The position numbers and the translations under genes were made by a program. A stretch of 64,000 nt of DNA. Source: Mesostigma viride. Lineage: Eukaryota; Streptophyta; Mesostigmatophyceae; Mesostigmatales; Mesostigmataceae. Below, in pieces: positions 14,401 to 35,353 of this stretch. Positions within the stretch are counted from its first letter, which is position 1; every line of letters starts with the position of its first letter. Where the stretch lies: assembly GCA_009746045.1 (NCBI GenBank), contig RPFO01000065.1:996211-1060210 (forward strand), written 5' to 3'. Below the pieces are notes generated by a model. The model worked only from the letters and a program-made list of their open reading frames with translations. It made no database searches and was not told the DNA's origin.

Positions 14401-17400
14401 TTTGCTCCCGCAGGAGGGCGCAATGATCAACCTGTCGCTGTCGACGCTGGGCAAGTGCATCGCCACGCTGGCGGAGATCAACCGCCTCAAGTCGAACAAC
14501 AATGAGACGTTCAACAAGGTCCACGTGCCCTACCGGGACTCGGTGCTCACGCTGTAAGTGGGCGATGACCCGCGTGGAGGTTGGGGTACCCCGGTTGGTG
14601 CGGGACGTGGGATCTTGGGCTGGGTGGTGGGCGGCTGGCATGCACAGGTTGTTGCGCCTAAACATGGCACGGGGAGACGTATGTCCTTGTGTGTGATGTG
14701 GTGAACGTGTGTGTGTGAGAGAGAGACCACACACACGTGACCTTGTGTGTGTGATAGGATCAATGGATGCGGCTGGCCGTGTTCTAAGAGCGAGGTTGAT
14801 TTGTGTTCATGGTAGAACACTTCTGATAGCACATTTTGGATGTATGAACCCTGATATACCACATCTAGTTAGCGCGCCTCGCTTCCACTCCCATTCTTCG
14901 CAGGCTGCTAAAGGAGTCCCTGGGAGGCAACGCCAAGACCATCATGATCGCGGCGCTCAGCCCCGCCTCCTGCAACTACGAGGAGACGCTGGGGACTCTG
15001 CGATATCCTTGACAACGTCAGGGCAAGGGGGGGAGGGGGGGGGGGCGGGATGTACGGGGTATATTAGATAGCAGATTGTGGGTGTATATGCGTTGGGGGC
15101 TTCGGGGCTCTTGGGTTGTGGCTGGGGATTTACCACAAGATCCATACAGATTTTTGTGTACCTGCTCGCTTGATTGTCATTCCTGTATGGCTGGCATCAC
15201 CTGGGTGTCATGTTTACGGACCATTGACGCTGCAGAGGCACTCGTGGCTCCATCTCCAAAGAATTGTCTGCTTCTTATGTTCATTGACGTGAACCTGCGG
15301 TTTTGGCTCCGTGTGTGTGCGAGTCAACCTTGGCCCCTAGTGGTCACTTGCCCCCTAACCATGGCCACATTTCTCCTTAACCGCATCTTCTGTGCGCAAG
15401 ACACCGGGACCTGCCCCCTGCCCCGCCATCGCCCTCCGGTATCTGTGCTGCTTGATTGCTGCTTGTGCGAATCGGGCGCTCCCCCTGTACTGCTTGTGTG
15501 TGTTGGGCGCTCCACGTACGTGGACCGCGCCAAGCACATCAAGAACCGCGCAATTATCAATGAGGACGCCAACGAGAAGCTGATCCGGGGTACGTGGGCT
15601 GCCGCTTGGAAGGGGTAGTCCTGTAGCTGGGTGAGGAATGGGGAGAAGCTCATCCGAGATGGGATGACTGGGCACTGACGGGGCGCAGTTGGTATAGCTT
15701 GGCGGGTTCGTCGACGCTGGTCCGAGGTGGGCAAGCAGGCTGGGGCATGTAAGGGGGGAAGCTCACCCCGGGGTATGCTGGTATAACTGGGTAATGAAAG
15801 GGAGAAGCTTATCCAGGGTACAATGACGAGGGCAGTGTTGGGGGGTAGACTGTGTGGTAGTAGTTGGAGCCATGTATCGATGCATGGCAACGACGCCGTC
15901 TATGGGAAAAGCATCCTGACGGTAGAGGATGTGCAGGGAACGGTGGAGGGGTCCCTGCCTGCGGATACAGCACAGTCGCATCAGTAGCGTTCATGCCTCT
16001 TTATGTACGTTTGTGCATAGACCTTCATACCTACTTTGTACTGCTTTGTTGTGTCTCTCTGCCATCAAGCACTTATGGCTGCTCGCGTGCAAGGCGTCAA
16101 CGTTACCCTGGCATGTAATATCAGGATTCGTGGCTCGTATCGTTGCCACAGTGAAGACCTTGTTTGCCTGTAGTGCCTGTGCCTCCCCGCATTTACATTG
16201 GAAGGCAGACGCACTAGGGATGCCCTGCACAGCCTTTACATGGCCGTGGGAGACGGCATCGTGCCCCCAGTCCATGTCCATGCCCGTCCAGGCTACCCTT
16301 ATGGGTACAGGCTGGGAACAGCAAGTGCTTGTAAGTCACAACAGAGGGACCTTTGTGCCAGGTGGCTGCGGGATAGCCTTTCTATTCGTGTTATCGGGAC
16401 AGCTGGGATCTCAAACATCCCAGCGGAGCCTGTCGGTTGAAGGCCTCGCCGCTCCGCTGTGTTTCTCCATGTAATCATGACATTGCCAAGTCTAGCCTCA
16501 CTGTGGTGCTGTGGCCTATGTCCATCCTTCATGATCCCCCCTGTCCCATTCATGATGCTAGCTTTGCCTCTCTTTTTTCCTCCATCCCGTTCTTAGTGCC
16601 ATGCCATCCCTTGGGTTTCTCTGCCCCCTGCACCCATGCATATGCTGTGACCTGCCACCTTTGTGTGTGCTGGTGCACAGAACTGCGGGAGGAAGTGGAA
16701 CGCCTGCGGTCGCTGGCGCAAGGTGGCGCCACCGCATGTGAGTGGTCACCTTGTGATTCTTTTGTCACCGCGTTGGACCGGTCAGGACAGGTCGTCCCCC
16801 CAGCGGAAATGGCATGGTTTCCTTCCATGCCAGCGTACGCTCTGCTCCACGCACTATGCTCCTCGTGACTTGGCTATGTGCTGTTTTCTCAGGCCTTGCT
16901 GGCTTTTTGCCCGTGTCCGTCTCTGTTATGGTGATGGGCAAGGAGTGAGAAGAAGCGTTCAGTTTGCAAAAGATGGCCGCGTGATGCTGTGTGTGTCGGT
17001 GCCTGTCTTCGGGCAGCATGGCCCGCTTGGCAGCCATGGTGTTCATAAGCAATCGGTAATGAGTTCTGGCGGCATGACTCGGGGCAGACCACAGACATGC
17101 AGAGCTGTTGAAACCAGATGTGGAGACTTGCATGATCATTGTATGGCCATGCGGCTCGTCACAATTTTCCTTCGTTTTGTGGCAATAATAACCTCACTGC
17201 CAGCGCACGGGCGCTTTTAACAACCCCTTTCTTCTTTCCTTGACAACCACGAAGCAACTGCGACGCCTGTGAGCGCATCCACCTACCGCGCCTGCTCATG
17301 CCCTCTCGCTGCGGCATCGCGTATTGGTGCGCTGTGGTGGCCTTGCTTGAACAACATCTGCATCTTCCTCTGGCAGATGACCCCAGGGAGGTGCGCATGC

Positions 17401-20400
17401 TGCGGGAGCAGCTGCAGCAGAACGAGCTGATGATTGAGGAGATGAACAAATCGTAAGTGAAAGGATTCCTAGATAGTTAGATATGAAGGAATCATAAGTA
17501 CAGTATTTGCCATTTGATTTGGAGATGAACAAATCATCTGTTGGAGGCGTTCTGATGAATTGGATTCAAACAAATTGTAGATGAAAGGCTCTTTTACACA
17601 TTGCATAGGAACAAATCACAAGTATAGTGTTTGCCTTATGAATTGGAGATGAAGAACAAGGACAAAGACGTCTTTACAATCTAGCCTACCTGGCCTGCAT
17701 GGGAAATGTGCAAGTTTCTGCCTATGCTGCTGTTTACAATGGCCAACATTTTCATTCTTTTCAAACTGCTTCGATTGGCATCATGCTGGCTCAACCCACA
17801 AGGCGTTCACAACTTCCATCCTCTACCATTCTGTCATCCAACTAATCCATCACTTGCATTTCTGCGGCGCTCTGTCCCCCCTGGCAGGTGGGAGGAGAAA
17901 CTGCGCATGACAGAGAGTATGATGAACAGCAATGACGCGCAGTTCAAGGTGGGTCCGGGTGGTGCGGAAAGGCTAGCATGTCAGAGGTGGGGGGTCAAAA
18001 CCAGGCAACCAAGCATTGACCAATTGGCCGGTTCGACCAAATGATTAACCAACTGAGTGACCAAAAGACAGGCAAGCAGACACGCAGACAAATTAACGCT
18101 AATGGAAAGGAGTCCAAGAAAGAGCAATCGATCTGCTTCATTTTGGATCGCTCTCAATTCTTCGCTTATATCTGCGCGGTCGGGCCTGCAGACTGTTGTT
18201 GGACTGCGCGCTCCCTGCCAGTGCCACATGCTATCTATTCTAGGGTGTCACTAGGCAAACAGCTTAGCAGTGACGGTGCTTAGGACCCAGGCCGAATGGC
18301 CCGTGCCATGAAGCCTACAAAACAGTCATTCACGCCTTAAGTTGGGTTCGAGGGTTTCTTCGGGTCAACCCAACTTAAGGCGTGAACCCAACTTAAGGCG
18401 TTAAGTTACCAATACTTGCGACCCCCCGCCCTGCTGATGGACTTTAGGGTGTCTTTTGATAGCTCTCGTCAAGGCCGATCGAACTGCACTAAAGAATTCA
18501 CCCCCAAGGTCGTATTTCGGGTCGAAACTTGGATGCAAGTCATCAAACCGGCTGTAGCCGGCAGGTGAAGCCCCACACAGCACGGTAGTGCTAGCCAAAC
18601 CTGCCTAACTTGGTGTGCTACATAGGGCATGCGCGTTCATTTATGAGTAATCGTAAACAGTGCTGTGTTGCTGGCTTGAGAGCTTGCTTGCCCTTGCCAC
18701 CCGCCTTCTCGCCTGTGGTGTCTCGTTTCTGCTTTTTGTTGGACGCTGCCCCGTTGCCCATAGCAATGCGAAGACAGTTCGTTCCATCTGGCCTTATCAT
18801 CAGTTTTGTCCGCCATTACTTAGTTTTTGGGGCGCCTTTATTATGGGTTCAAATGTGACGAACGCCTTTGAACCAACTACAGCATGACTGAAGCCGTTTG
18901 CCCATGTATAGAATACCGCGTCAAGTTGTTGGGTAGCTTACTCCCCAGCTGCGAGCTAGGCCGACGTGGACCACCGTATCTCCCTCGCCTGGCACGCTTT
19001 ACGCCAATACAGGGCCCTGTGGCGCAAGCCCTTGGGCAAGCTAGAGAAACAGGACCGGTTTAAGGTCCTGGTCCTTCCTTTTCTCACGTATGGGGCCGAG
19101 ACGTGGACCCTCATAGCCGACCTTGCCAAAAAGCTGGACAGCACGGTCACCAACATGCCGCGGTCAATTTTCCGTGTTTGTGGGCTATGCTGCTCGCGTC
19201 CGCGTGTGGGCTATGCTGCTCACGTCCGCAAGGAGGACTTGTACCTATAGGCATGCCAATAGTTAGGCAGCACCATCAAGCAGCGGCGCCTGCAGCTAGT
19301 AGTAGTGCACTTCGCTCGCACCAACCAGGTAGACACATCACGTGGCCCCTCCGCAGGGCTGCGACGTGCTCAGCCTGGCAGGCACCTCCTCAGTCACGTG
19401 GGACGGGCCCAGCAATGCTAGACGTCGCTGCAAGGCCCGCACTTTCAAAGAGCAGCTAGAAGAGGACATCGGGGGGCTATGAGGCCTCTCCGTGATTTGG
19501 AAAAAGATTATGGACAAGGCTAAGTGGCCTCAGGTTATAGAGGACAACCGCGCCCCCCTCCAGTGGGAAAGCCGCGTGTTTGCAAACGCGAGAAGCATGT
19601 TAGGCAAGACCCCTATTAGGGGCTGATATAGGGTCTGGGGCAGAATAGATAGAGTAGGATTGTTTGTACCTAGAGATAGTTCTAATAGACCGGTAAAATT
19701 AAACTAAATTAAACTGTAGCACATCTCCGTTGGGAGTACATGCAGCACATATCCCTGAGAAGGGGCATATGGCTTTTTATACATTCTGGGCTACTCCGTG
19801 CAAGGGTAGGGTGTAAACTACACCTGCACTCTGGGTGCACAAAGTGCACCTGCACCACTATGTATTCCACCACCGGAGGTGCGGATAGAGGGTGGAAGAT
19901 CATCGTGGCTAAACAATGGGTAGGGCATGGCTTCTCAGCAGAGAGTATCTCTCTGCATAGGCAGAGCTTGGCTAAATTGAAAGACCAGTAGGATTGCGTG
20001 TACCCATCCATCCATCCATCCATCCATCCATCCATCCATCCATCCATCCATCCATCCATCCATCCATCCATCCATCCATCCATCCATCCATCCATCCATC
20101 CATCCATCCATCCATCCATCCATCCATCCATCCATCCATCCATCCATCCATCCATCCATCCATCCATCCATCCATCCATCCATCCATCCATCCATCCATC
20201 CATCCGTTGTTCGTGGTTAACCAAATGCTCCGTGACGGACTCCCCAACGGGAGCACGAGTTTAATTAGTTAATGCAATACCGACAATGATGACAGAATCA
20301 GCAACCAAATGACCAAGATCCGTAGTGAATTCTAGGTCACAAGTGTTGGGTGGGCAGGGTGGCGCGGGCTGGCGACCACCCACAAGTCGCGGCAGTCAAA

Positions 20401-23400
20401 AACAGTGCCACACCGCTCTAGAAGCCAGTTCACGCCTTAAGTTGGGTTTTCGCTAGTACAGCCAGCAGCCTTAAGTTGGGTTCGCCATGCAGCCAAATGC
20501 GACCCAACTTAAGGCGTGAACCCAACTTAAGCCAACGCAACGTAAGGCGTGAATGACTGTATAGAAATCTGGCAAACTACATGATTGCAGCTTCTCTCTA
20601 CTTCTGTGCATTCTAGAAGCCAATCCCGTGGCATGCCTGCTTGCAATGTACATGTCTATTTCAAGTCCTAACGTATGGTTGCTCGCATTACCGACATGCC
20701 TCTTGAGGGTACTTATCCTTTTCCATCACCGTGATTTTCCACGGAACGACTGCTGCGTTATACGCATTTGCTGATCGACGATTGACGGTTGATCCTGCGA
20801 GTCCTCCTCGTATTGAATGACATGCCCCTTTTTAATTCTCAGCATGCCTTGCCCCTTACCCTCTTGGCCAACTGTGCCGTGCTGGTGCCTTTCTGCTCTC
20901 CCCCCCCCCCCCTCACACGCACACCCCAGAACGTGGGTGTTCGCCTCAAGGAAAACCAGGACACGCCGCAGCTGATCAACCTGAACGAGGACCCCCAGAT
21001 CTCTGAGTGCCTCATCTACTTCATCCCCGCAGGTACGTCATCCCCTCGTTGGCGGCAGCTCAGATGGTTCGGGGGTGGAGTGGGGGTCGAGGGACCAGGA
21101 AGCAGCAGCTGTTGTACTGTTGTCCGTCCCATGTACCTTTTCTTCCCTCACCGACCCTTCCGATGCAGCTGTCATTTGAAGAACGAGCCATGGACAGACA
21201 CTGGACCATGCACGGTGCATGCTGGCCCATGCGCACACCCTCGTAGGTGCACTGTCGTTGGTCATATGGTCAGCATCGTAAACACACAAGGAATAAACCA
21301 TCTGGTCGGGGCATCAACAGGCATACGTGTAATGGCTGGTATGCACCTTCATGAATGCGCTGCCAGCCACAACCCGGCAATAGTAATCGCTACTAACCAC
21401 AATGTTCTACGTACTACTACACTAAGAATCCCAATACGACATCAAAATCAACCAGCAATTACTAACCTGCCAGAGGCTAGCCGCTAGCCAGCAAGCTCAT
21501 GTGCATGTTTGTTGCCGTGCCATGTCGGCTGCGCGGCGCAGGCACGACGCGGGTGGGTACGGGCCAGGCCGACCCCCCCAACGACATCCAGCTGCAGGGT
21601 CTGAGCATCAAGGCGCACCACTGTACGCTGGTCAACGAGGGGGGTAAAGTGACCATCGAGCCGGGGGCGGACGCCAAGGTGTTTGTCGATGGCAACCGCA
21701 TCACGGGACCCGTCACACTGTTGCACGTGAGTAGGGGGTTGGAGTTAGGGCGTTCGAGCCTTGGGGCATGAGAGTAGTTGGGCGTAGGAGTGTTGCGGCC
21801 AGTGAGTTGGGGCATGTGCGCGTCACGCTCCGCACACCAGGACGTTGATGGTTGCGCCAGCGTGGCCGCCATGGTCGCGGCCCTAGTCGTCATCAAAGGA
21901 GCCAGATGCCGACCTGGGGTGCATGCCTCTATGTTTCTCCATCGATATGTGTCCTGGGCGCGCCATGACTGGAGGTCTGCGGAGGGAGATGGCAGCGCCT
22001 TGTCATGAACGCGTTTCCGCACAGGATACCACGTAACCAACTTGCACGTTACGGATGCCAGCAGGAGCGCCGCGTACTGGTCGCCGTCCAGTACGCGGAG
22101 ACAAAGGAGAGGGTTGAGCCAGGGGTGGTGATAGTAAGGTTCCCTGGCTAGGTGTGTGGGAGATCTCTGTGGCTGCGCCCATACAACAAGCTGCAGGTTA
22201 GTGCAGAGCATGGTGTCCGCGACGCCCAGCGCACCGTGTGGGAGTGGGCCGCGAGTGAGCATCACGGGTGGAGATGCACAAGAGCATGGCACGCGTGCCA
22301 CAGGGGAAGCAGTCATGGCGCGAAGGCATACTGGATTATTAAGAGCATAAGATTGGGGTTATTAGATAAAGGGCAGGAGTGCGTAATTAGTGAGCAGACG
22401 TGAGGGATGTTAGGGAGGTCTGGCTGGAACGGCCCAGGCTCCCACCAGCGAGGCTAAATGGAGTAGTAGCCTTGCAAGTGTTATGTGGATGGCCACACGG
22501 CCAATCATTTCCCATGAAACTGCATGCAAACACACGTCTTCCTGCGCAGCAGTGTGCACCCATGCACCGTGATTTTCCAGTGCACATTACAGGCATACGC
22601 TGCTGTAACAACTGCCCTCATGCTTGCACAGGCATGCTGTCTTCACTGCAGCCTTGGCGGGCGGGCATGTAACTGACTGCAGGCCGTCACAGCCCAGCTA
22701 CCTGACGCAGCCACTCCCACCAATGCCTCCTATTTCCCCTCCATGATCCTGGGTCCCCGTGGGCCTGCACACGGTGCCTGGGACCCATCCCCTGTCTGCC
22801 GCCTTTGCTCCCTTTGCCCCCGCGCCACCGTTGCACATGCTGGCATCCGCCCCCCCCCCCCCCTTCTTCCCCCCCCAGAGCTCACGCGTGGTTCTGGGCA
22901 CCAACCACATCTTCCGCTTCCACGACCCGGTCGCCGCGGCCGAGCTACGCGCACAGAGGTGGGCGCGTCGCGGTGTGCTGCCGGCCCATAGCCCTATCCC
23001 CATGCTGCGCGGTTCCTGTCACGGTTGCATGTAGCAACAGGGCGCAGCATGTAGCCTCACCCCAATACACTGTAATTTCTGCACCTCGTCTGACCTGGAT
23101 ACACGAGCTGGTGCCAGACAAACCGAGCGGTATCGTTCCAACTCTGCCATGGGTCCTTGTGGGCATGTCCTCGTTGGGATGATGAGGCATACCCATGGCG
23201 TCAAGTCGACGATGCCGTGATCTAGTCTGCTCAGGAACTGCCTGTACATCTCCTTTGGCAGCCTGCCTCACAGGGCAAAGGGCAACAATTTGTAGAAAAG
23301 TGGGTTTCTCGCTACAGCATCAGGTGGTTTTCTGTGGGGAAGTGCTTCTTTTGTGTTTTCCATATGGCCTACACATTGCTTCTGTTCCTTTGTGGAAAAC

Positions 23401-26400
23401 TAAAGCTACGTATGCATCATGCATGCGGAGCTTAGGACTATGTTTGAGTCTAAACACGCTTGTGCTGTGTCCTTGCTGCTCATGCATTCCCTCAACACTC
23501 ACACGTAGCTTGGCTGCCTGCCTGCCTGTACGTGTGGAGGCCTTGCGCGTCCCATTAACACTCCTTAATTGATTCACGAATCACCTGCCCGCAGGGAGAA
23601 GGCCATTGCCAGCGGTGAAGCCATCAACACGCCGCAGGTCATCGACTGGGCGTTTGCTCAAAAGGAGCTGGCAGCCGCGCAAATGTAGGTGGCCTAAGTC
23701 GTTTCCAGCCAATGGAAACAGTTTGAGGAAGCTCCCACACAGGGACCTCCCCCTACCCTTTCCCACGCGAGGGCTGGGTGTGTTGCTCAGCTGTTGAAGA
23801 TGGAAGTTGATGATGGCTGCGCGGGCTGTCGGGTGGATGCGTCCGGGATTTCTAGTGGCCGTCGTCGGGGCGTTTTGCAAGTCTTTAATGAGCTGTTCAT
23901 TGGCTAGGCCCTGCTGGGCCTGGTAGGAGAGGGGACTGCTGCCGTGATCACCCGCTCACCCTGGAGTTGCTGCTCACAAGAAGTGCCCCTGTGGCCTCCA
24001 TGGGTGCTTACTGTCATATCTGAACGTGGCTAGCACATTGCCTGTGTAGTATCTTCCTTTCATTCGATCCCACACAAGGATCAGGAAACTACCAACCAAC
24101 GGACGGTGTGGTGTATTGAGGAAGCGCTTGCTGTGACTGCCGTCAATATGCTTCCAACCTCTTACACAGGCCTCTCACCCCCCAACCCGACATGTATTTA
24201 CATCCGTTTTCCCAGCATGGTCACATGCATGCCTCCGTCCCATTCAACCCCTCTTCATCCCCCTATTCACATCTTTTTGCCACATTTGTCACCCCCTCTT
24301 CACCCCTTTTCACACTTTTCACCCTTTTTCACCCCTTTTCACCCTTATGCACCCCTTTGCACCCCTTTGCACCCCTTTGCACCCCTTTGCACCCCTTTGC
24401 ACCCCTTTGCACCCCTTTGCACCCCTTTGCACCCCTTTGCACCCCTTTGCACCCCTTTGCACCCCCTCTCCCACCCCTCCGACCCCTTTTCACCCCCTCT
24501 CCCACCCCTCCCACCCCTTTTCACCCCCTCTCCCACCCCTCCCACCCCCCAGCAACGCGCTCACGATGGCAAACAACGAGGAGTTCCGTCGCAAGGAGGA
24601 GGAGATGCGGCGCGAGCACGAGCGCCAGCTGGCGGCGATGGAGGAGCGGTTTGCGGCGGAGAAGGAGGCGCAACTGAGTGCGGAGCTGGAGGCCTTGAAG
24701 GCCAAGGCGCTGGAGGAGATGGCGGCCAAGGCGCGCGCGCTGGCAGAGCAGGAGCGCCTCATCCAGGAGAAGAAGAACGAGATCGAGAGCAAGGTGAGGG
24801 GAAGAATAATGAGGTGGACTAGTGTGCCCCGCTGGCTTCGCCCAGCCAAAAAAAGCACTTTGGAGCGGTAGAGGGACTGCCCGCTGCCCGCTGCGTAGTA
24901 CGTGGTCCTTCGCTGCGCTCCGGAGAGGGGAACAGTACGGTGCTCGCTTCGCTCGCGGCCCGCTGAACAGAACCGTGCTCGCTTCGCTCGCGGCCGCTGA
25001 ACAGTACGGTGCTCGCTGCGCTCGCTGTGCGCTTTCAGCGCAGCTCGCTTCGCTCGCCGGGCGCTTCGCGCGGGTTGGTGGTCAGGCGGTCGTCTTCTTT
25101 CGTATTGGCGTTCAGTATTTCCTAGGCTTTTTGGATTGGCGGGGAAGTCGCGATGCCCTGGATAGTGCCGGATGCCTACTCATTGCTAAATAAATATATA
25201 GGATACGGAGATTTTGGGGGGTAAAGAGAAAGAACGAGATCGAGAGCAAGGTGGGGGGAAGAATAATGAGGTGTACATGGAGATTTGGTGGGGTAAAGAG
25301 AAAGCACGAGATCGAGAGCAAGGTGGGGGGAAGAGTAATGAGGTGGATACGGAGATTTGGTGGGGTAAAGAGAAAGCACGAGATCGAGAGCAAGGTGGGG
25401 GAAGAATAATGAGGTGGATACGGAGATTTGGTGGGGTAAAGAGAAAGAACGAGATCGAGAGCAAGGTGGGGGGAAGAATAATGAGGTGGATACGGAGATT
25501 TGGTGGGGTCAAGAGAAAGCACGAGATCGAGAGCAAGGTGGGGGGAAGAATAATGAGGTGGATACGGAGATTTGGTGGGGTAAAGAGAAAGAACGAGATC
25601 AAGAGCAAGGTGAGGGAAAAGGGGGGGACAACCGAATAGAGAGCATCACGGGAATGGGGAGGAGAGCTGAACTTGGTGTGTTTGGAGGGGCGGGGGGAGG
25701 AATCGATCACCCGTATGGCAGGGGATAGGAGCGACGGGGAAGCAGGTGAGGCATTAGTAGGGAAAAGGGAACGCCTGCTTTTGTTAGAATGGAATTCGCT
25801 TGTGAATGGTCAGGTGCCGATTCAGCAACTACAATAGCCACCAAACAGTATGACATTGTAAAATTTATCTGGGCGGGTAAAATGGTGTTCTTGGCTAATT
25901 CAATAGTTTTGTTTAAATGTGCTACGAAGCACCAGGGGATTGTCCTCACCCACATCTCAATTTCCCCATTCGTCCCGTGTTGATGCAGTGAGCACCAAGC
26001 TGGCTCTGGTGGCTGCTTCCCTTTGCTCTGGTGGCTGCTATCCTTTGCTCTGGTGGCTGCTTCCCTTTGCTCTGGTGGCTGCTACCCTTTGCTCTGGTGG
26101 CTGCTTCCCTTTGCTCTGGTGGCTGCTACCCTTTGCTCTGGTGGCTGCTTCCCTTTGCTCTGGTGGCTGCTTCCCTTTGCTCTGGTGGCTGCTATCCTTT
26201 GCTCTGGTGGCTGCTACCCTTTGCTTTGGTGGCTGCTACCCTTTGCTCTGGTGGCTGCAACACTTTGCTCTGGTTGCTGCTATCCTTTGCTCTGGTGGCT
26301 GCTTCCCTTTGCTCTGGTGGCTGCTATCCTTTGCTCTGGTGGCTGCTACCCTTTGCTCTGGTGGCTGCTATCCTTTGCTCTGGTGGCTGCTATCCTTTGC

Positions 26401-29400
26401 TTTGGTGGCTGCTACCCTTTGCTCTGGTGGCTGCTACCCTTTGCTCTGGTGGCTGCTACCCTTTGCTCTGGTGGCTGCTACCCTTTGCTCTGGTGGCTGC
26501 TATCCTTTGCTCTGGTGGCTGCTATCCTTTGCTCTGGTTGCTGCTATCCTTTGCTCTGGTGGCTGCTACCCTTTGCTCTGGTGGCTGCTACCCTTTGCTC
26601 TGGTGGCTGCTACCCTTTGCTCTGGTTGCTGCTACCCTTTGATCTGGTGGCTGCTACCCTTTGCTGCGTGGGTTTCAAGCCCTTGCTCCCTGCCACTGTC
26701 GTCATCTCCTCGGTTGTCATGACTACGTAAGTCATTGTAACCACCATGGCTGTCCTGGTCAGCAGCGCCCTCCTCCACCACCACCAGCGCCAGCAGCACC
26801 GCCGTTACCAACCTCGTCACCATCCCACCTTCCCTGCCTCCACTACGTTTCCTCGGGCGCCCCGCCCGCAGCAAGCGCAAGCGCAGCAGCAGGAGATCTA
26901 CGAGCGGATGATGCGGGAGCAGAAGGCCGCGTTTGAGAAGATGATGCGCGAGCAGGTGAGGTCAAGGGGAAGATGCCTGTGCAGGTGACGACTAGCAGAG
27001 GATGGGTACGCGGGTGAGGGCAAGGGGAGGATGCGCTTGGGCCACCACCCAAACCCTGATGGTTGAAAGACGGACCTAGCGGAAGCCGCATGGGAGAGCA
27101 CAGCCCCAGGTGGATGCTGGATTAGCAGGCAAAGAGACTGCCTTAACGCAGCTCGTGTGTGGGATGGTCTTACCTAGCAGTAAACTGGCAAGGGCAAAGT
27201 CATGGTGCCACCACCGTTGCCTCCAAAGAGCTTGCTGGCATGGTGACCCAGACTCAAGTAGCAGTAGAAATCCCCTAGGCAGCACACCAATGGAAACTAT
27301 TTGCCTATTGAGGGGAGTGTACTGCTTTCTGGGTTGACCTTCCTGACGGGAGTTGGCTGGAAGTGCTGCCACTGCCACTGGCTCAACAGCGAATGGTGGG
27401 GTTCAAAGTATGCCTCTCCAACGTGCCCGCTCACCAGGATGAGCGAGCTCATGTTTCTGCACCGCACCATGAACCGTGTGATCGACCTTTGAAACATCAG
27501 CAAACGTAGAATGGCTCTCATCATTGCCACGCATACATTGCCTTTTGTCGTCACTAAGTCCTTACGGTGCCCTTTGGAATGTTGCTGCACCATCCTGACA
27601 TGCTGCAAGCAACGCTGCACCTGCACCTGCCTGCTTGTGCCCACAGCTGGAGGCGCAGCGGGCGGAATTAGAGCGGCAGCAGGCGGTGGCGCAGGAGACC
27701 AAGCGTCGCGAGATGGAGGAACAGGTGAGATGCGTCAACATGTGAAGGGCGAGGGGGAAGACCAGTGGGGTGGAGAAGAAGGTGAGAAGAAGGTGAGAAG
27801 CCACAAGGGGGGAGGAGGATGTGCTTAGAGGTGGGGAGAGGAGGCAGCCGGGTGGAGGAGAAGGTGAAATACTATAGAGAAAGAGATCGGTGAGAAGTGG
27901 AGATAGGAAGCCGCCTCCAGCCTGTACCCTTCCTGGGAACCCCTTGTTGTTCCTTTCAGCATGTCCCCCTTCCCCCTGCCTCCCTGCCTTGCCGTCAAGG
28001 CCCTACGTTTACCACTTCCTTCACGGTCGCATGCGTCCCCATTTCCTGCGCACACAATCCGTTCCACATGAGTTACTTGTACAGGAACCATCATCCCATA
28101 AGCTTTTCCTCCACTAGCAACCCCCCTTTTCCTGCTCACACGAAGAAGCCTCCCCTTTCTGCCTGGGCCCTGTTTGCATGCCCCCTGCCTGTGCGATATC
28201 CTAGAGTGTTCTTTTTCTTTTCATGCCCTCTTACTTGTGCCCCCCTTAAGCGCCTCCTGTTGTCACCCCCTCATCTGTTCACGCCCCATGGCTCATGCCC
28301 ACAGCATGCGTGGCCTTCTGTAGTCACCCCCTTCTGCATCCCCTCGGCGTGTGCCCCCTCTGTGCTCTCAGTCCCTTGCTCATACGCGGCCTGTGCATCG
28401 CCCTCTACGCCTGCCCCCTTTTCCCATGTATTCTCTCCTGGCGCATCCCCTTCATCGGCCACCAGCAAGCACTTGAAGAGGCGAGCATGCGTGAGGACGC
28501 GATGCGGCAGGCCATGCTGGATGAGGCCATCGGCCACATGGTGCAGCTGATCAACGAGGCCAACGACATGAGCGCCGAGATGGGGCGCGGGGTCACCTTT
28601 GAGGTGCGCATCGTTACGCACACGGGCGGCGCGGGGGCGGACGGTGGCAGTCGCCGCATCAACTCTCCCATCAACGAGCTGCTCAGCGCCGAGGTGAGGC
28701 AGCGCTCATTGTTGTGGGGCGGGCGGGGAGGAAGGGGGGGAGGAAGGGGGGGAGGAAGGGGGGGAGGAAGGGGGGGAGGAAGGGGGGGAGGAAGGGGGGG
28801 AGGAAGGGGGGGAGGAAGGGGGGGAGGAAGGGGGGAGGAAGGGGGGGGAGGGGAGAGGGGGGAAGCATCGGAACCTTTTGTACCGGTGCTGTTGCCTGCT
28901 CCCTGCCTGCTGGGCTCATGCATGTGTTACCCAGCTCACACCGGGCAGGTATACGCAAACAAGTCGTGGCCCCTTGGCTGCACAAGTACGACGGGGGGAC
29001 CATGCGCACTTAAGGTTGTGCTGGAACAGGGGACCTAAGGCAGGCTAGGCCAATGGCACATATGACAGGCCACACGAATCCACCGCTGCTCCCTGCTGCA
29101 GTGCTCACCTGGTGCGCCCTCCAAAGCCCCATCAATGTCCGCCGGGGGCAAGCTTGTTCCTTGGAAGTGGCATGCACATGTGCTCTGAGTTTCCAGCCCT
29201 AAAAAAGAAAAGGTGTGTGGCCTGCATCCGCCAGCACTAGCAGACTGCCCCAACCCTGCCCTGACTCCGCGCTTCTCCCGCAACTCTGACTAAAATTGCA
29301 CCTCCCCACCCCAACACGTGATGCTCCCCCCTGGGCCCCCCCCTCTCCCTCCTATTGCCCCCTCTTCCTTCCTCTCCCCCGCCCCATCCTTCCACCCACC

Positions 29401-32400
29401 CACCCACCCACCCACCCACCCACCCACCCACCCACCCACCCACCCACCCACCCACCCACCCACCCACCCACCCACCCACCCACCCACCCACCCAGTCGGA
29501 GGTGGCGGTGGCGGTCACGTTCAAGGACGGCAGCAGCGCCACGTGGGACGCGGACAAGTTCTCCAACCGCGTCTTCATCATGCGCGAGCAGTTCCAGGCA
29601 TTCCTCGAGGACCCCACCTTTGAGGTCGCCTTCGAGGACGACCCCTTCTACGACCCATCCGAGGTTCAGCTGCTCGGCTCATGCCTCGTCTTCCTGGAGG
29701 CGCTGTGCCACCTGTTGGAGACGGACCACGAGCCTACGATTGTGGACTACCGAGGCGCGCCACTGGGGCAGCTGGCGGTGGAGATGTACGTGGGAGGGGG
29801 GGAGCAGTATGCATGGCGTGGTGGGGGGGTGGAGTTGGAATAGTAGGGCTATATAATGGCGGAATGGACCAGGGCACTGCGGGCCGGGGGGGGTATTAGT
29901 GGGTTGTGCGGCGGGGGCTGGTAGGACGATGCGTGGCGGGAGGTAGTAGGAGTGGTGCATGGGTGGCGTTGTGCTGGTGCTGCTGGGCAGCTTGTAATGT
30001 TAGTGCTGCATGGCAGCAGGTGATCGTCCTGTGCGGTGGCAGGTGGCACAGGTGCTGTGTGGCGGTGGAAGGAAGAACAATGCTGCATGTGGCGGCGAGC
30101 ACTGGCAGCTGGGTAGCGGAGAGTGTGGGTTAGCATGGGTGCGGGCGCGAGCAGCATGGGTGGGAGGTATTGCGGCTGAATGCCTCGACGGCTCATGTGG
30201 CTGGAGCTCGCTCTTGTTTGACATTTTCCCAGTGCTCACGGGGTGGCGTAGGGGAATCTGAGGCAACATCCGCGTTCAAGGGAATGCACGCTGTCAAGGA
30301 CCGCAGACCTGGTCATGCTCTGGCATCTCTGCCGCCTGCGCGGATACCTGTTTTCCGCACCTGGCATGTATGCCTGACGTGCGCCACGCCTTGCATGAAT
30401 GCCTGTAGTTACCGTCCCTTGTCCATGTGCCTGTGTGTGCCACGCCAGCAAGCCGTGCGGGCCGGACGGCAGCGACAACTTTGAGGACGTGGACTCCCCC
30501 CGGCAGCTGATCGGCCGCCGGCTGGACGTGCTGGTGGACATTGCGCGCGTGAGCGACCTGACCACGCACTGCATCATGGACGTGCACGTCAAGTACAAGT
30601 TCTTCAACGAGCCGCCCACGGTGACCGAGGTCAGTGATGGCAAGCGATGTTTCACAGGTGAATGTGTGATAGTATCCATGGAGATCTGCAGCAGCAGGGA
30701 GTGATGGAGTACAGAAAGTGGCAGTGGTCAGTAGCTGGAAATGGCAGATTTAAGAACATTTTCGTGGCGATAGCTGGTGGTGGCAGAGGTGAGTGGCTGA
30801 TAGGGGCATGGGGCAGTAGTGAAATGTGACAGAAGGCAGTATGGAAGTGGCAGAGCTGCTAAAGTATCAGATGTCAGTAGCTGAACTGACTGGCTGGAAC
30901 TATACGGCTCATCTCGTTGATCGGATAACCCAGTTGCCGCTGGTTGCTTGGTTGCCTCCCCAGAACTCGAATTCGGTTACACTGTTGTCCCTCTCTGTTG
31001 CGCCCATTTGCGGCCATGAGCAAGAGAATTGTCGTATGAATGAGCAAGAGCGCTATCTGATGAGCAATGGTGTGACGAACGTCTGGCTCTCCCTTTCCGT
31101 CCACCCTTCCTCCCCTTGACTTGATGGTGCTCTCACAAGATAGGCAGGAAGTGCGGAAATTAGTTTCAGCGTAGGGCTGTTCACTCCAAGCCCCTGCAAC
31201 CTGATAAATTGCCTCTGCTTGCCTGCCCCCATGGCTTGTCCCCGTGGCTGGGTGCTATCATCCATCTTTGCCCCACGCCCACAGACGTGCAAGCAGGTCA
31301 CGCGCAACCCCACGTTCAACTTCCGGCGGCAGCACACGTTTGAGCACGTCTCCGAGGAACTCTTCCAGTACCTGATGAGCGATGCCATCCTGTTCGAGGT
31401 GTACGGCAAGAGCCCAGGTGCGTGGCCATGTAGGCATGGTGGGCAAAAAGAGCCCAGGTGTGTGGCCATGTTTGCATGGGGGTCAACAAGGGCCCAGGTG
31501 CGTGGGGGCAGTGAAATGGGCAGTGAAATTAAGCTTTCCCCATTATAGGTGTTTTTCATTCATTCATTTGGCCTGGGATGCGCGCACTGTGCTGCATGCG
31601 CGCGTGCTTCCAACCTGTACACCAGGAGTAAAATGGCCACGTAACATCCACGTGCAGCCAACATATGATGTGGACACTCTCCCCCACCCTCCCTGTTCAC
31701 ATGTACCCAGATAAATTGTATCCAGCTGGCACACCATGGCAGCGCAAGCCGGTAATAGCGTGTCTGTATTGATTCTGCTCGCCTTGTGTGCATGCGTGGC
31801 ACCAACCCATCTCCTACATGCACACCCACCAGTTGTCTGCTTCCCGGACTCTCCTGTCGGACTTGCACTAATCTGGTCTCCCATCCCATCTGCTACCCCC
31901 TCCCATTTCGGGCTGCCTCCCTGAATCCCAAACCATGCACCATTTTACAAAATAAATAAATAAACACCATACACCATAAACTATAAACCATGAACCACAA
32001 ACCCCAACCCCTCAACTGCTTGCAGACGTCAAGGACGAGGACCGTGTGGGGTCCCTGCGCAAGCGACCGCTCCCCGGCGCGCGCACCGAGCTGCCCAGCA
32101 TCCGCGCAACGCGCTTCCACTCCCCTGGGACCTTGTCCCCCGCCGACATGTCGCCCATGGCCGGCACGCTGTCGCCCATGCGCGGGCCCGACGGCCGGAC
32201 CTACAAGTTCCCCTCCCTCTCCCCGCTCGCGCCGCGGGACGGCAGTGAGCACAACCAGTCGTTCAAGCTGCCGCCGCCAAACTTCCGGTCACACTCGGGC
32301 GGTGCGGCGTCCCCTTTGCCGCCGCACACACACTCCAAGCTGGGCATGTCACCCTTTGGCGCCGCCGATGGGGCCTCTCCGTTTGCAGGAGGCGCCGGGT

Positions 32401-33748
32401 TGCCACCCAAGTCCCCTCGCATGGACGATGGGGGGGGGTCACATGCAGGGGGGGTTGCAGGGGGGTCTTACGCAAGGCTGGTGCGTGCCAGCTCGCCAAG
32501 TGGCAGCGCGGGTGCCTACGCAGATGCCAGCTTCCGTGGGGAGGAGGACGGGGCCGTGGCTGGTCGAGAGGGCGCGACGACGCCGCGCCTACGGACGAGT
32601 ACCAGCCGTTCCGATTCGTCCTCGCGACCCATCACGCCGGAGCAATCGCAGCACCACCCCCCGCAGCGGCATGCCAAGGCCATGCCATCCCCCCCATCCC
32701 CCACTCCCCTGCCCGCCCCTGCTCCCCATCCCTCACCTTCTCCCTTGCCTCCCCCTGCCTCTGCGTATGAGCCACCCCCGGCCGTCTACGGGTCTGGGTC
32801 GGGCGTGGAGCCGACGCTCACCCCAGCTGTGGCGGGCGACCTTAGCCACCGCAGCACGGGTGGCGCGCACGAGGACGGCAGCATTATCGCGGAGCGGCAG
32901 CGTGCGGAGCGCGAGGCCGAAGAGAAGCGCAAGGCCGCAGAGGAGAACGCGCGGCTCCACAAGGAGGTGGGTGCTAACGGCTGCGGTGTGTGGCTGTGCA
33001 ACGAGGCGGGTGTGCGGTTGCACAAGGCGGTGGGGGCGCGGTTGCGCAAAGTAGTGAGCGCCTAGCTGCGCACTGGAACGAAACGCGTTATTGCACAGAG
33101 AAGTGAATGCTTCGCTGCACAAAATGGATATAAATGCGTGGTTGCACAAAGAGGCGGGTGCGCAGTTTCAAAGAAATATGGAAACGGGGACGTTTTTGTT
33201 TCATGTGCCATGTTTTTTCTCTGCCACTGTCATAGGTTCTGTTTTTTCTCTTATCGATATAGCGCACCGTCAAATCAAGCGCAACTCTCGTTCGTCATTA
33301 GCAATCACAGTTTCATGGGTATCACCATAGATAGAATGTGGTATGCGATTGCGCACGAAACTTGGTTCTTGTGAGGATTTTGTTGGTAAGCGTGCACTTG
33401 CATGTGTGTGTGCTTTTAATGCCCTGACAGCTGGCGGAGCTGAAGGCGCAGATGGCAGAGGCAAACCTGCGACGAGAAAACGCTGCTAAAGCCGCGGAGA
33501 GTGCCAGCAGTTCGGAGGCGGAACGCGAGAGGCAGGCACAAGAGCAAATGAAGGCCGAGCTAGAAGCCATGAAAAAGCAAATGATGGAAATGACTACGGC
33601 TATCCGGGACCAGGGTCCGAGGCCTGTTGTCCAAGTGGTCAATACCAGCCCACACCAGGCATCGTCTCCTGCCCGGTCAACACCTGTAGCATCACCAGAG
33701 TCGGAGGCGCATGATGGCCCCAAATCGAAAGCATGTATCATACTGTAG
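8445..33748 (+). CDS. Kinesin-3 (KIF1/Unc-104-like) motor protein with FHA domain and C-terminal CaaX box, 27 exons, 1,428 residues
   Basis: Plus-end microtubule motor of the kinesin-3 type. Exons: 8445-8515, 8768-8841, 10048-10173, 10787-10971, 11477-11542, 12420-12475, 13073-13211, 13620-13730, 14414-14553, 14904-15002, 15516-15589, 16681-16737, 17377-17452, 17888-17948, 20930-21032, 21542-21726, 22879-22958, 23595-23684, 24553-24793, 26872-26955, 27647-27724, 28466-28693, 29496-29785, 30449-30629, 31285-31417, 32026-32966, 33431-33748. Phases sum to exactly 4,287 nt. Motor about 1-380: P-loop GQTGTGKS (100-107), switch I SSRAH (224-228), switch II DLAGSE (258-263). FHA about 470-560, preceded by the kinesin-3 motif [15 protein letters not shown]. 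Coiled coil about 570-730. KIF1-like region about 735-1010 ([20 protein letters not shown]). Pro/Ser-rich linker about 1010-1280, second coiled coil about 1270-1380, end CIIL. The lysine-rich loop 12 (K-loop) and a PH domain are not seen. The exon 12 end (GCAT before gtgagt) is the least certain junction. Confidence 0.92.
8842..14413 (+). other. Kinesin-3 introns 2-8: mostly no recognisable element
   Basis: Introns 2 (8842-10047), 3 (10174-10786), 5 (11543-12419), 6 (12476-13072), 7 (13212-13619) and 8 (13731-14413) show no gene or clear mobile element. Intron 4 (10972-11476) is described separately. Intron 8 opens with loose repeats of a GGGGACAAA-CCCACACCAT type block (about 13732-13935). 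Short direct repeats occur at 12139-12195 (CAGGTCCTATTGTGCTTACC twice). Confidence 0.5.
10985..11205 (+). repeat. G-rich simple repeat starting at the intron 4 donor
   Basis: A GAGGGC-type repeat and then a long GGGGGC/GGGGCGG run fill the first 230 bp of intron 4. Dozens of G-runs of 4 or more lie on the coding strand, so the transcript could form G-quadruplexes close to the 5' splice site. The all-frame open reading of this stretch is a composition effect. Confidence 0.8.
15003..15515 (+). other. AT-AC intron (intron 10) with a U12-type 5' splice site
   Basis: Exon 10 ends in codons for TLR with two bases CG at 15001-15002. The intron starts ATATCCTTGA at 15003 and ends CCAC at 15515. Exon 11 then restores the invariant kinesin motif [12 protein letters not shown]. 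No AG lies between 15401 and 15515, so no GT-AG solution keeps the motif. ATATCCTT is the U12-type donor consensus. The branch site is less clean: a 7 of 9 match ends CTTGAT at 15451-15456, 60 nt upstream of the AC, and a better CTCCTTAAC at 15373-15381 lies about 135 nt upstream. Confidence 0.8.
15590..16680 (+). repeat. Intron 11 with tandem copies of the exon 11 end and donor
   Basis: The exon 11 end GAGAAGCTGATCCGGGGTAC is echoed in the intron as GAGAAGCTCATCCGAGATGG (about 15643), GGAAGCTCACCCCGGGGTAT (about 15757) and GAGAAGCTTATCCAGGGTAC (about 15812). The second and fourth copies also share an upstream block ACTGGGTRATG. The remainder of the intron (to 16680) shows nothing else. Intron 12 (16738-17376) shows no element. 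Confidence 0.65.
17453..17887 (+). repeat. Intron 13 with partial duplications of the exon 13 end
   Basis: The exon 13 end GAGATGAACAAATCGTAAGT recurs as GGAGATGAACAAATCATCTG (from about 17519) and GGAACAAATCACAAGTATAG (from about 17607), with an associated block AGTATTTGCC/AGTGTTTGCC after two of the copies. Spacing is about 80-90 bp. Confidence 0.65.
18900..20275 (+). mobile_element. LINE 3' end, copy 1: reverse transcriptase C-terminus, 3' UTR, CATC repeat and terminal hairpin
   Basis: Translated pieces read [36 protein letters not shown] and [20 protein letters not shown], the C-terminal part of a LINE reverse transcriptase (the [10 protein letters not shown] block is typical). Several frameshifts and stops mark it as dead. 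After the stop come a short 3' UTR, a CATC array, the hairpin CTCCCCAACGGGAG and a TTAA-type tail ending about 20275. Homologous copies lie at 34011-34463 (minus) and 53065-53943 (plus). I could not find a target duplication for this copy. Confidence 0.75.
20003..20205 (+). repeat. (CATC)n microsatellite, about 50 units
   Basis: About 203 bp of uninterrupted CATC. The two other copies of the same LINE have only about three or four units here (34080-34098 and 53876-53892). The long ORFs across it (PSIH or MDGW repeats) are artefacts. Confidence 0.97.
21033..24552 (+). other. Kinesin introns 15-18: no gene; 10 bp repeat in intron 18
   Basis: Introns 15 (21033-21541), 16 (21727-22878) and 17 (22959-23594) show nothing beyond C-rich tracts before the acceptors. 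Intron 18 (23685-24552) contains about eleven perfect copies of CACCCCTTTG (about 24348-24463) followed by CCCACCCCTC-type repeats that run into the exon 19 acceptor at 24552. Confidence 0.7.
24794..26871 (+). repeat. Kinesin intron 19: two minisatellites, one derived from exon 19 and its donor
   Basis: First array, 25203-25620: six copies of a 72 bp unit (one 71) that contains the end of exon 19, including ACGAGATCGAGAGCAAGG, followed by a GTGGGG or GTGAGG donor-like site. Donor-like GT dinucleotides fall at 25251, 25323, 25395, 25466, 25538 and 25610; the real donor is at 24794. Second array, about 26003-26665: about 30 copies of a 22 bp unit with core CTCTGGTGGCTGCT. Because 22 is not a multiple of three and the unit lacks stops, all three plus frames stay open. 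Before them, 24826-25080 is a block of short palindromic repeats around GCTCGCTTCGCTCGC. Confidence 0.85.
26956..28465 (+). other. Kinesin introns 20 and 21: no gene seen
   Basis: Intron 20 (26956-27646) repeats its donor neighbourhood once: GTGAGGTCAAGGGGAAGATG at the donor and GTGAGGGCAAGGGGAGGATG at about 27014. Intron 21 (27725-28465) opens with purine-rich repeats of the AGAAGGTGAG type (about 27773-27800). Nothing coding is apparent. Confidence 0.5.
28715..28862 (+). repeat. G-rich 11-12 bp minisatellite at the start of intron 22
   Basis: About eleven copies of a GGGGGGGAGGAA-type unit begin some 22 bp after the exon 22 donor (28694). Confidence 0.9.
29393..29495 (+). repeat. (CCCA)n microsatellite that forms the exon 23 3' splice site
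   Basis: About 25 uninterrupted CCCA units run straight into CCCAG at 29491-29495. Exon 23 starts at 29496. No separate polypyrimidine tract exists between the repeat and the acceptor, so the microsatellite itself supplies both the tract and the AG. Confidence 0.9.
29786..31284 (+). other. Kinesin introns 23 and 24: no gene; donor-like repeats in intron 24
   Basis: Intron 23 (29786-30448) shows no element. Intron 24 (30630-31284) opens at GTCAGTGATGGCAAG and has related blocks GGTCAGTAGCTGGAAATGGC (about 30728), GAGGTGAGTGGCTGATAG (about 30787) and ATGTCAGTAGCTG (about 30869). These may be decayed duplications of the donor region. Confidence 0.5.
31408..31515 (+). repeat. 40 bp tandem repeat that triplicates the exon 25 end and donor
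   Basis: AGCCCAGGTGCGTGGCCATG spans the exon 25 donor (31411-31430). AGCCCAGGTGTGTGGCCATG follows at 31451-31470, and GGCCCAGGTGCGTGGGGG at 31491-31508. The spacing is exactly 40 bp, so three near-identical donors lie at 31418, 31458 and 31498. Only the first keeps the downstream frame with exon 26. The rest of intron 25 (to 32025) is featureless. Confidence 0.85.
32955..33175 (+). repeat. Degenerate tandem copies of the exon 26 end in intron 26
   Basis: The exon 26 end CGGCTCCACAAGGAG plus donor gtgggtgc is followed by decayed copies of the same block: CGGTTGCACAAGGCGGTGGG (about 33013), CGGTTGCGCAAAGTAGTGAG (about 33038) and TGGTTGCACAAAGAGGCGGG (about 33141), with others between. In the exon frame they read as variants of RLHKEVGA. 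Confidence 0.7.
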
Positions 33749-34010
33749 TATCTGCGCTGGCGCTTGGATTTGCCGGTGAGGCGTACGCATATCTTTATCT
33801 AACCATGATCCACATAATCGCCTGGTGCATTATTAGAAGAAGTACAAACTCTCACATTTCAATGGTATTTATTCAATTCCAAGTGATCGATAGTTTATCC
33901 ACAAACACAAGAACAGTCCTGTCCCGTGGCATGAAAAACAGATATGAATCGCCTAGTTTGAAATTGCTACCAAAATTGGTACTCCCCCCAATCGCGACTT
34001 GCAGCCAATT
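33749..34010 (+). other. Presumed kinesin-3 3' UTR and downstream spacer
   Basis: AT-richer sequence after the TAG. No poly(A) signal could be assigned with confidence. It ends at the target duplication of the LINE fragment that begins at 34011. Confidence 0.4.
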
Positions 34011-34463
34011 AATTAATTAATTAATTAGACTCGTGCTCCCGTTGGGGAGTCACGGAGCATTAACCCCGATGCATGGATGGATGGATGGGTGCAAACAGTC
34101 CTACCGGTCTAATCTATCTACATCGGCTACATACTAAATCTATCTAACAGCATTCTAACTACAACATCTATCTAGACAGCCGCACGCTGCCCTAGGGGAG
34201 CTGTCTGGCGTGCCTCCCACGGGATTGCACACGCGGGCGCTTCCCCACCGGGGGGGGCTCCTTGTCCTCTATGACCTGGGCCCACTTGGCCTTGTCCATC
34301 ATCTTCTTCCAAATCACGGAGAGGCCTAGGCCCCCCATGTCCTCTACTAGCTGTTCTTTGAAGGTGCGGGCCTTGCGGCGTCTAACATCACGGGGCCCGG
34401 CCCACGTCAGGAGGTGCCGGCCAGGCTGGGCTGGTCGCAGTCCTGCGGGGGGGCCACGTAAGG
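34011..34463 (-). mobile_element. LINE 3' end, copy 2 (5'-truncated, minus orientation) with 11 bp target duplication
   Basis: On the minus strand it encodes the reverse transcriptase C-terminus (VIWKKMMDKAKWAQVIEDKE, then PPPVGKRPRVQSRGRHARQL and a stop). A 3' UTR, four CATC units, the hairpin CTCCCCAACGGGAG and an AATT-repeat tail follow. The target duplication TGCAGCCAATT is at 34000-34010 and 34464-34474. This is the expected product of target-primed reverse transcription with early arrest. Confidence 0.85.
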
Positions 34464-34496
34464 TGCAGCCAATTGGCTGTTGCCATGCAAGTTGAC

Positions 34497-34564
34497 ATAT
34501 GACAATGGTCCGGATTCTCCCGATTTCTGGCCTGCGCTGGTTGTCTCCTTGATATGACAATGGT
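34497..34564. repeat. 42 bp insert flanked by 13 bp direct repeats
   Basis: ATATGACAATGGT occurs at 34497-34509 and 34552-34564, flanking 42 bp. The insert (minus strand, GACAACCAGCGCAGGCCAGA in its middle) recurs with few changes at about 37626-37665, and its first half at about 41468-41490. Confidence 0.7.
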
Positions 34565-34619
34565 CGCCATCACACTCCTCGAGAATTAAGCCGGAGGCTG
34601 CCCAACTTGGCTGGACTGC

Positions 34620-35343
34620 CTGGCGCTCGAGGCCGGCTCAGGCAGATGGTCTAGAAATTTGCCCCAAAACGGAGGCCCTGGCTCTTGGCATGGCCGGGCC
34701 CCCGCCCACACTCCGCCTCTTAGCTGACACCGAGGTCAACTACCCTACTTCAGGCCGCTTCAAGCTGCTCGGCAGTTGGCTTCCCGACTGCGAGGACGAC
34801 CTGACGACACGGATCAGCATGGCCGGCGTGGGCGCAACTCGATGACCACCGCGGCTGGTGGAGCAACCCCGCCCTACCCGGATCGTCTGGACAGCGCGAC
34901 CTCTTCAAGGTCGTCATTCTGACGATCCTGACCTACGGCCGCCAATACCTGGACACTGACGCAGGAGCTGGAGCAACGACTCGACGGCAACGTCACCAAG
35001 ATGCTGCGCAAGGCCCTTAACATCCCCTTTGGTTCGCACATTAGTAATGAGGATTTGTACGCTGTTTTGCCCTGTGTTTCCCACATTCTTAGGCACAGGC
35101 GCATGGGCCTAGCCGGGCACCTCAGTGGCCCGCACAGATCAGGTAGACACATCAGATAGACTAGCTGGCACCAAGCCCGCCCAGCCTGGGCGTTATGTCC
35201 TCACCTGACCTGTGCCCCAGGCCGTGCGCGGCAGGGCCGCCACCCGTGGCCGGACTTTTCGTGATGGACTCAGCATGGACATGTGCTACCCTAGACGTGA
35301 CGGGCTCACACCCGGGCCGGCAGCCTCCTGGTTTGTCTGTAAT
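34620..35343 (+). mobile_element. Decayed LINE reverse transcriptase C-terminal fragment
   Basis: Broken frames give LLGSWLPDCEDDLTTRISMA, a short piece matching the [10 protein letters not shown] block (ILTYGRQY near 34925), and RRMGLAGHLSGPHRSGRHI. These match the same region of LINE copies 1 and 3 at lower similarity. It is interrupted at 35344 by the ORF1-only element and may resume after 37433. Confidence 0.6.
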
Positions 35344-35353
35344 ATGGAGGCAG

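Follow-up and report, generated by a model that had tools for sequence, protein, structure and literature searches.

Copies of Exon Edges and Splice Sites in the Introns of a Kinesin-3 Gene and Other Loci of Mesostigma viride

Introduction

Several introns of a kinesin-3 gene of Mesostigma viride (contig RPFO01000065.1) open with repeated copies of the end of the preceding exon and of its 5′ splice site (the donor), which raises the question of how such copies arise, whether they are confined to donors and to this gene, and what becomes of them. A sequence-only reading of the locus had proposed a recurrent process, by slippage or break repair anchored at exon–intron junctions, that lengthens introns and seeds competing donors. 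This proposal is examined here in the kinesin-3 gene and in a sample of loci from the same genome.

The Kinesin-3 Gene and Its Surroundings

The window, i.e., the whole stretch of 64,000 nucleotides that was analyzed, contains a kinesin-3 gene whose model, rebuilt from the sequence, has 27 exons and 26 introns, numbered as in the sequence-only reading; positions 14,401–33,748 cover the 3′ two thirds of the gene.

8445..33748, forward strand: kinesin-3-like gene, 1,428 aa, with an open spliced frame, a single terminal stop and Pfam domains

The first 1,009 aa match the Pfam domains Kinesin motor (331.8 bits), Kinesin_assoc, FHA and KIF1B. Within the 64-kb window, no second intron-rich gene could be confidently modelled as a control.

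Other features of the window were observed alongside. Intron 10 of the gene (15003–15515) has CG before and ATATCCTTGA after its 5′ boundary, CTCCAC before and GTACG after its 3′ boundary, and TCCTTAAC at ~15374; judged by these motifs, we take it to resemble an AT-AC intron of the minor spliceosome. The TCCTTAAC branch motif is unusually distant from the acceptor and adjoins an imperfect repeat, and the genome contains a U12 snRNA candidate that scores 79.1 bits, where the gathering score is 53. Retrotransposon-like remnants, recognized by eye, lie at 18900–20270, inside intron 14, and at 33990–35420, downstream of the gene; both carry tails of CATCC or CCAT tetranucleotides, and their GGGAGCACGAGT...TTAATT ends are alike. 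On the reverse strand, the giant open frames at 54733–63998 consist of Ig-like repeats of the bacterial Big_12 type, in 7 and 22 stretches, with a tandem period of 288 bp; they were possibly acquired from bacteria.

Exon-Edge Copies in the Kinesin-3 Introns

Repeats of exon ends were evaluated with a gapped alignment forced across the junction, in which the best image in the own intron was ranked against the best image in 25 other introns, so that donor consensus and base composition are controlled. This test replaced a strict ungapped one, which was too strict, and a first Smith–Waterman version, which returned trivial self-matches. Six of the 26 donors (11, 13, 19, 20, 25 and 26) rank first in their own intron, against about one expected. 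These include all five introns for which direct repeats of exon end and donor had been claimed from the sequence alone, together with intron 20, which had been named as possible; intron 24, the other possible case, drops out, its donor ranking 3 of 26 in the junction-crossing test, which is not significant. Among the acceptors, 3/26 rank first, two of them in low-complexity stretches. Moreover, 27 of 200 random points inside the kinesin-3 introns also beat every other intron, which indicates that local repetition is widespread in them; it is densest over their first 120 nt. Tandem Repeats Finder (TRF) reports arrays of 72 bp in intron 19, 40 bp in intron 25 and 29 bp in intron 20. The copies outside intron 19 are as follows.

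15572..15831, forward strand: intron 11, end of exon 11 and degenerate copies ending at 15658, 15772 and 15817; rank 1 of 26
17433..17631, forward strand: intron 13, end of exon 13 and degenerate copies ending at 17493, 17535, 17576 and 17617; rank 1 of 26
26943..27034, forward strand: intron 20, 29-bp units of the form GATG....AG directly before GTGA, with three donors; rank 1 of 26 and TRF
31405..31505, forward strand: intron 25, 40-bp array with donors at 31418, 31458 and 31498; TRF and rank 1 of 26
32950..33175, forward strand: intron 26, end of exon 26 and degenerate copies of a GTTGCACAAGG unit, ~24–30 bp; rank 1 of 26
13731..13940, forward strand: intron 8, about five units with GTGGGGAC-like starts at or after the donor, with no recognizable exon end; located by motif positions

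The copies of intron 13 are spaced by ~41 bp, with a best block of 15/15. In intron 25, the three donors had been described as exactly 40 bp apart, and this description is borne out, with both spacings at 40; RGCCCAG precedes each donor, and the last copy stops 8 nt past its donor. The units of intron 8 are a weak case, the donor ranking 14 of 26, which is not significant.

Intron 19 had been described as opening with six copies of a 72-bp unit. The six copies exist, but they do not open directly at the exon: a 382-bp element, overlooked in that description, lies in between.

24773..24818, forward strand: junction copy of intron 19, end of exon 19 and donor, severed from the array by the inserted element; 98% match
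24819..25200, forward strand: dispersed 382-bp element in the first array unit, flanked by a 3-bp GGA duplication; genome matches and flanks
25201..25616, forward strand: intron 19, array of 72-bp units that repeat exon end and donor six times; TRF

The array copies end at 25250, 25322, 25394, 25465, 25537 and 25609, and the last one diverges ~7 nt past its donor. The junction copy matches the array copy 672 bp downstream at 98% over 46 nt. Furthermore, the distance from the exon-19 junction to the first array copy is 457 nt, and subtracting the element and one GGA (385 nt) leaves 72 nt, the period of the array. The end of exon 19 and the 72-bp array were formerly contiguous, and the 382-bp element was then inserted in the first unit. 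The element has at least 63 matches in the genome, many of them end to end (query 24820–25200; 354 candidates, 40 scored), and contains GCGAGCGAAGCGAGC-like repeats. A separate minisatellite of 22 bp, with ~30 copies, occupies positions 26003–26665 of the same intron.

Recurrence of Exon Edges at Other Loci

The genome (G000, 439.9 Mb) was sampled at 59 loci around kinesin and E1-E2 (P-type) ATPase exons, which gave 43 stretches with less than 300 kb of letters; L001 and L002, which are the window itself, and L042, which has a GC content of 0.32 and in which no gene was found, were excluded. Exon boundaries beyond the window come from a purpose-built gene finder trained on the kinesin gene of the window alone, where it recovered 25/26 donors. 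Minimum lengths, which varied with the test, were set at 100 to 300 nt for introns and at 45 to 60 nt for exons.

Three observations concern the sample itself. L042 may be bacterial. In L003, L004, L005, L006 and L034, kinesin or ATPase genes are predicted with few or no introns, whereas their relatives are intron-rich. Kinesin matches of the same score lie on separate contigs (C622:17695-21288 and C2:6330541-6334132 of G000; also C805, C1104 and C1926), which are probably haplotigs or recent duplications and would serve for comparisons of copy number.

In the sampled stretches, the own intron outscores 25 others for 39/117 donors, against 4.5 expected, and does so for 5/117 exon points taken 60 nt inside; among acceptors, the count is 25/127. 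A search with 40-nt exon pieces against the neighboring introns, covering the 43 stretches and the window gene, resolves which parts of the exon recur and where. For exon ends, the downstream intron gave 25 positive cases of 153 on the plus strand and one on the minus strand, the upstream intron 0/165 on either strand. For exon starts, the upstream intron gave 13/165 (minus strand 0), and the downstream intron 2/153 on the plus and 3/153 on the minus strand, where the control with introns of other loci also gave 2/153; in every other cell of that control the count was 0. No exon middle was found in the adjoining introns (0/61 and 0/72, i.e., 0/133; minus strand 0). Pieces taken 50–90 nt from the exon edge gave 2/79 and 1/90 for ends (one on the minus strand each) and 0/79 and 0/90 for starts. 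Counted by acceptor, 22/153 have copies of the exon start in the upstream intron, one or two of them doubtful. Exon-end copies found with queries made of exon only extend in 52/59 cases to within 5 nt of the junction.

A hold-out of three myosin stretches agreed for exon ends, with 5/24 downstream and 1/25 upstream, and gave exon starts upstream in 2/25, one of which is low-complexity, and 0 in the remaining cells; two of the five exon-end copies reach the junction, and one of these (28/29 identical) is then followed by a donor. In L025 and L017 (donor 3535), the gene finder took an exon-end copy for a small exon, and the copy counts are therefore probably underestimates.

Exon edges, and hardly any other part of the exon, are thus copied into the bordering intron, in direct orientation and on both sides of the exon, and this pattern is genome-wide in the loci sampled. 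The counts agree with the proposed recurrence of units made of exon end and donor, and copies in the kinesin-3 gene, the sampled loci and the hold-out myosins agree with the proposed lengthening of introns and seeding of extra donors. The process is not, as had been assumed, specific to donors, since exon starts are copied upstream as well.

Tandem and Dispersed Copies

Counts per position over 171 introns, expressed as junction over interior with bootstrap ranges, separate two classes of copies. For tandem arrays, the ratio is 1.3 (0.4–2.9) at donors and 0.2 (0.0–0.9) at acceptors; they lie evenly between donor and interior, yet the units at junctions include exon. For dispersed copies, the ratio reaches 70 (29–168; 10/136) at donors and 48 (21–128; 12/144) at acceptors, part of which is detection bias. 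Since the exon parent is conserved, an exon copy remains visible about twice as long as the intron half, and this slower loss can make an eroded tandem duplicate look dispersed at a junction and vanish in the interior, which inflates the dispersed ratio. Young copies (at least 28 nt, 95% identity) show no junction excess (4/119 vs. 50/960, p = 0.51); the excess sits in the older classes. Consequently, the junction peak was rejected as proof of anchoring for clean arrays, which have no donor excess, given that young copies likewise have no junction excess. An enrichment at donors, for which the sequence-only reading had suggested a genome-wide scan and which was here evaluated in the sample of loci, is seen for dispersed copies, with the bias just described, and not for tandem arrays.

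These figures fit an explanation that requires no anchoring, in which tandem duplications of 30–250 bp occur uniformly within introns and across their borders, those that span a border survive with one intact splice site, and the junction peak reflects the slower decay of the exon half. We regard this explanation as possible, although doubtful. The equal density of tandem arrays at donors and interiors and the absence of a junction excess among young copies favor it, as does the fact that interiors are rich in tandem arrays while near-perfect arrays also occur at junctions. Moreover, of the 31 donors that have a strong image (z above 3), 12 have the following intron copied as well (z above 5), which makes the duplication tandem.

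However, a tandem duplicate must include the following intron, and it is here that uniform duplication falls short. Sixteen of these 31 donors have a junction-touching copy of 90% identity or more at a distance of 47–246 nt; nearer, weaker and non-touching copies were left out. The following intron is copied in 6 of them (z at least 5), is borderline in 1 (3.2) and shows no similarity in 9 (z below 2). Simulated decayed tandem duplicates were detected in 97–100% of cases at 10% divergence per copy and 50–180 nt of intron, although the spacer of L029, the shortest of the nine, is 28 nt and thus below the lengths simulated. Among mid-age repeats, the ratio of tandem to dispersed is 7:1 in interiors (n = 13), compared with 3:11 at donors (n = 14) and 0:11 at acceptors (n = 12).

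The ends of the arrays point in the same direction. Among 11 donors viewed by eye, 7 have a last unit that is incomplete and ends ~3–8 nt past the copied donor (L009, L054, L025, L026, intron 19, intron 25 and the two-copy L056), 3 are plain tandem repeats with complete units (intron 20, L027 and L013) and 1 has a decayed end (L045). Over a larger set, the last image runs past the junction by 9 nt or less in 29/34 donors, some of them doubtful (L024, L039) and with the last copy of intron 19 missed, so that the cases viewed by eye are firmer. The view that all dispersed copies are eroded tandem duplicates is disfavored by the nine donors of 16 and by the simulation, with the caveat of detection bias, and we argue that such erosion is an incomplete explanation of them.

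Proposed Mechanism

The reading that we prefer, which we hold at close to, but somewhat under, an even chance, is a two-step neutral growth of introns from their edges, in which duplications across splice sites act as founders and some of them expand into arrays. In the first step, a segment across the splice junction, with ~15–60 nt of exon and 0–11 nt of splice site, would be copied as a direct repeat, the two copies being separated by unrelated filler. The product has the structure exon, gt, filler, exon′, gt′ and old intron, which is observed as such, whereas its cause would most likely be error-prone repair of nicks or of a staggered break near the splice site; at acceptors, a mirror-image event would take place. 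In the second step, which is seen in paralogues, the unit of filler, exon′ and gt would be amplified by ordinary tandem duplication into clean arrays such as those of introns 19 and 25. Judging from reading frames and decay, the mRNA would remain unchanged as long as the outermost donor or acceptor stays in use, and the inner copies would be decoys that mutate freely and add intron length. Copies confined within exons would be removed by selection.

Several observations count against founders of this kind, namely, the absence of a junction excess in clean arrays and in the youngest copies, and the arrays of complete units in intron 20, L027 and L013. In addition, right edges just past the donor are partly favored by the detection of exon-rich copies, three of the five exon-end copies in the hold-out myosins fall short of the junction, and a few exon pieces matched on the minus strand. 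A more specific claim is that in this lineage a splice-site-anchored mutational process repeatedly re-copies exon edges and splice sites, from donors as well as from acceptors, into the intron next to them, and that these founders seed arrays; exon edges would then be the source of much of the intron length and of the decoy sites. This claim is advanced tentatively and with less confidence than the two-step growth. Slippage, which had been offered as one possible cause, does not by itself yield the dispersed copies.

Short copies of nearby sequence accompanied by filler are typical of polymerase-theta end joining, and templated insertions at breaks within introns could thereby account for the form of the copies. 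This pathway would be expected to draw on both strands, on exon middles and on either neighboring exon, whereas exon ends were found 25 times on the plus strand and once on the minus strand, middles in 0/133 and ends upstream in 0/165 (hold-out 1/25), which makes it an unlikely, disfavored source.

Paralogues and Decay of the Copies

A comparison with a sister strain had been suggested for orthologous introns; it was carried out instead on paralogues, in which both the presence and the number of copies vary. At one P-type ATPase donor, the exon of L056 is followed by ~50 nt of filler and a single further copy, which makes two with the exon included; L054 reaches six on this count, with a filler unit of the L056 type, and no copy was found at the same donor of L049. 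At another P-type ATPase donor, L045 has at least five units of 78 bp counting the exon, L044 has one old copy, and none was found in L043. The kinesin paralogues L025 and L026, whose exons are identical at 198/215 positions, each contain a 70-bp unit three times, if the exon is included. At several sites where the two genes differ, the units of each gene agree with one another; one such site is a synonymous exon difference (TCC vs. TCT) that is carried by the exon and by its intronic copies. Such gene-specific differences point to homogenization or re-expansion after the genes split.

It could also be that selection keeps the tandem donors as decoys, alternative sites or splicing enhancers. 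Copies are common, and GT at the donor image is retained in 38/52 of them. Nevertheless, among the diverged copies GT is kept in 19/27, as neutral decay predicts (~0.76 expected), and mismatches between copy and exon are spread evenly over the codon positions (38/477, 51/477 and 39/482, i.e., 8.0, 10.7 and 8.1%). The distances of the copies fall into the three frame classes as 13 (multiples of three), 25 and 14 of 52, with no excess of multiples of three, and homologous junctions of paralogues differ in the presence and number of copies. A function of this kind is very unlikely, and the copies appear to decay neutrally, with no sign of function in their sequence. The reading frames of the kinesin gene and its relatives require the outermost donor, so that the inner donors are probably ignored under normal conditions.

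Mobile or introner-like elements that insert at splice junctions with long target-site duplications are the least probable source, and highly improbable: although the layout of exon, filler and exon′ resembles an insertion between direct repeats and a genuine dispersed element lies within the array of intron 19, that element entered an existing array and not its edge, the repeats of the kinesin-3 and sampled junction copies vary from ~16 to 60 nt and are not of fixed length, and 16 spacers had no match at the other sampled loci except for the paralogue pair L056/L054. The spacer of L021, the one filler searched genome-wide, matched only itself and is single-copy, and the idea that the fillers form a mobile family was rejected on this result. 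Together with the two matches, overall, of exon pieces in introns of other loci, these results uphold the distinction from introners drawn in the sequence-only reading.

Relation to Known Systems and Significance

Two-step growth from intron edges shares elements with several described cases. Human introns have reportedly arisen from tandem arrays whose repeats carry splice sites and breed new introns with matching boundaries (Zhuo et al. 2007). The repeats of those arrays bear splice sites, as they do in Mesostigma, where the arrays start from one existing border.

In the RdRp gene of potato, a tandem genomic duplication crosses an intron–exon boundary (PMC4974935), and, as in Mesostigma, the splice signals are inherited from the parent border; however, the potato gene is a single case, in which the duplication crossed an intron's end together with the exon after it and created a new intron, whereas Mesostigma shows both borders, many genes, repeated founders and arrays in existing introns, and no new intron is shown. 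Tandem duplication of exon segments containing AGGT is an accepted route of intron gain (PMC3443670), and it resembles the present copies in being a local direct duplication that includes exon and splice-site-like sequence. In that model, a new intron is made from exonic DNA, while in Mesostigma it is existing introns that grow, with their outermost splice site retained. In Daphnia, introns are gained in the repair of staggered breaks and direct repeats likewise flank the inserted nucleotides, but those repeats are short and mark a new intron, unlike the Mesostigma repeats of ~16–60 nt, which span an old splice site in the same intron (PMC3443670). Break repair by CST and polymerase alpha-primase gives rise to small tandem duplications at induced breaks in mouse and human cells (PMC8355091), i.e., to short direct duplications by a route known for breaks with single-stranded ends; the relevant passages of that study link them to no splice site, in contrast to the Mesostigma copies. 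Direct orientation and the filler layout are shared with such patch-mediated or CST-type duplications, a likeness in outcome only. The direct repeats of 4–30 bp near intron splice sites described by Rogers and Bendich (PMC11782384) also lie near exon–intron borders, but they relate the 5′ border to the 3′ border, whereas in Mesostigma the copies of a border lie on that border's side of the intron.

Single duplications across a border, intron gain by tandem duplication and duplications arising in repair are known. The titles and abstract openings of the open-licence literature searched contained no description of exon edges being copied repeatedly, and across the genome, into introns from both ends.

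The exon-edge copies show one route by which introns lengthen and fill with decoy splice sites. Intron lengthening apart from mobile elements is poorly resolved, and here its raw material, exon edges and splice sites, is directly readable. The copies provide dozens of natural experiments on how the spliceosome chooses the outermost among near-identical donors, as well as a clock in which a conserved exon parent can be set against neutrally decaying copies. Moreover, they suggest that one type of DNA repair error may be concentrated at splice junctions, which is testable.
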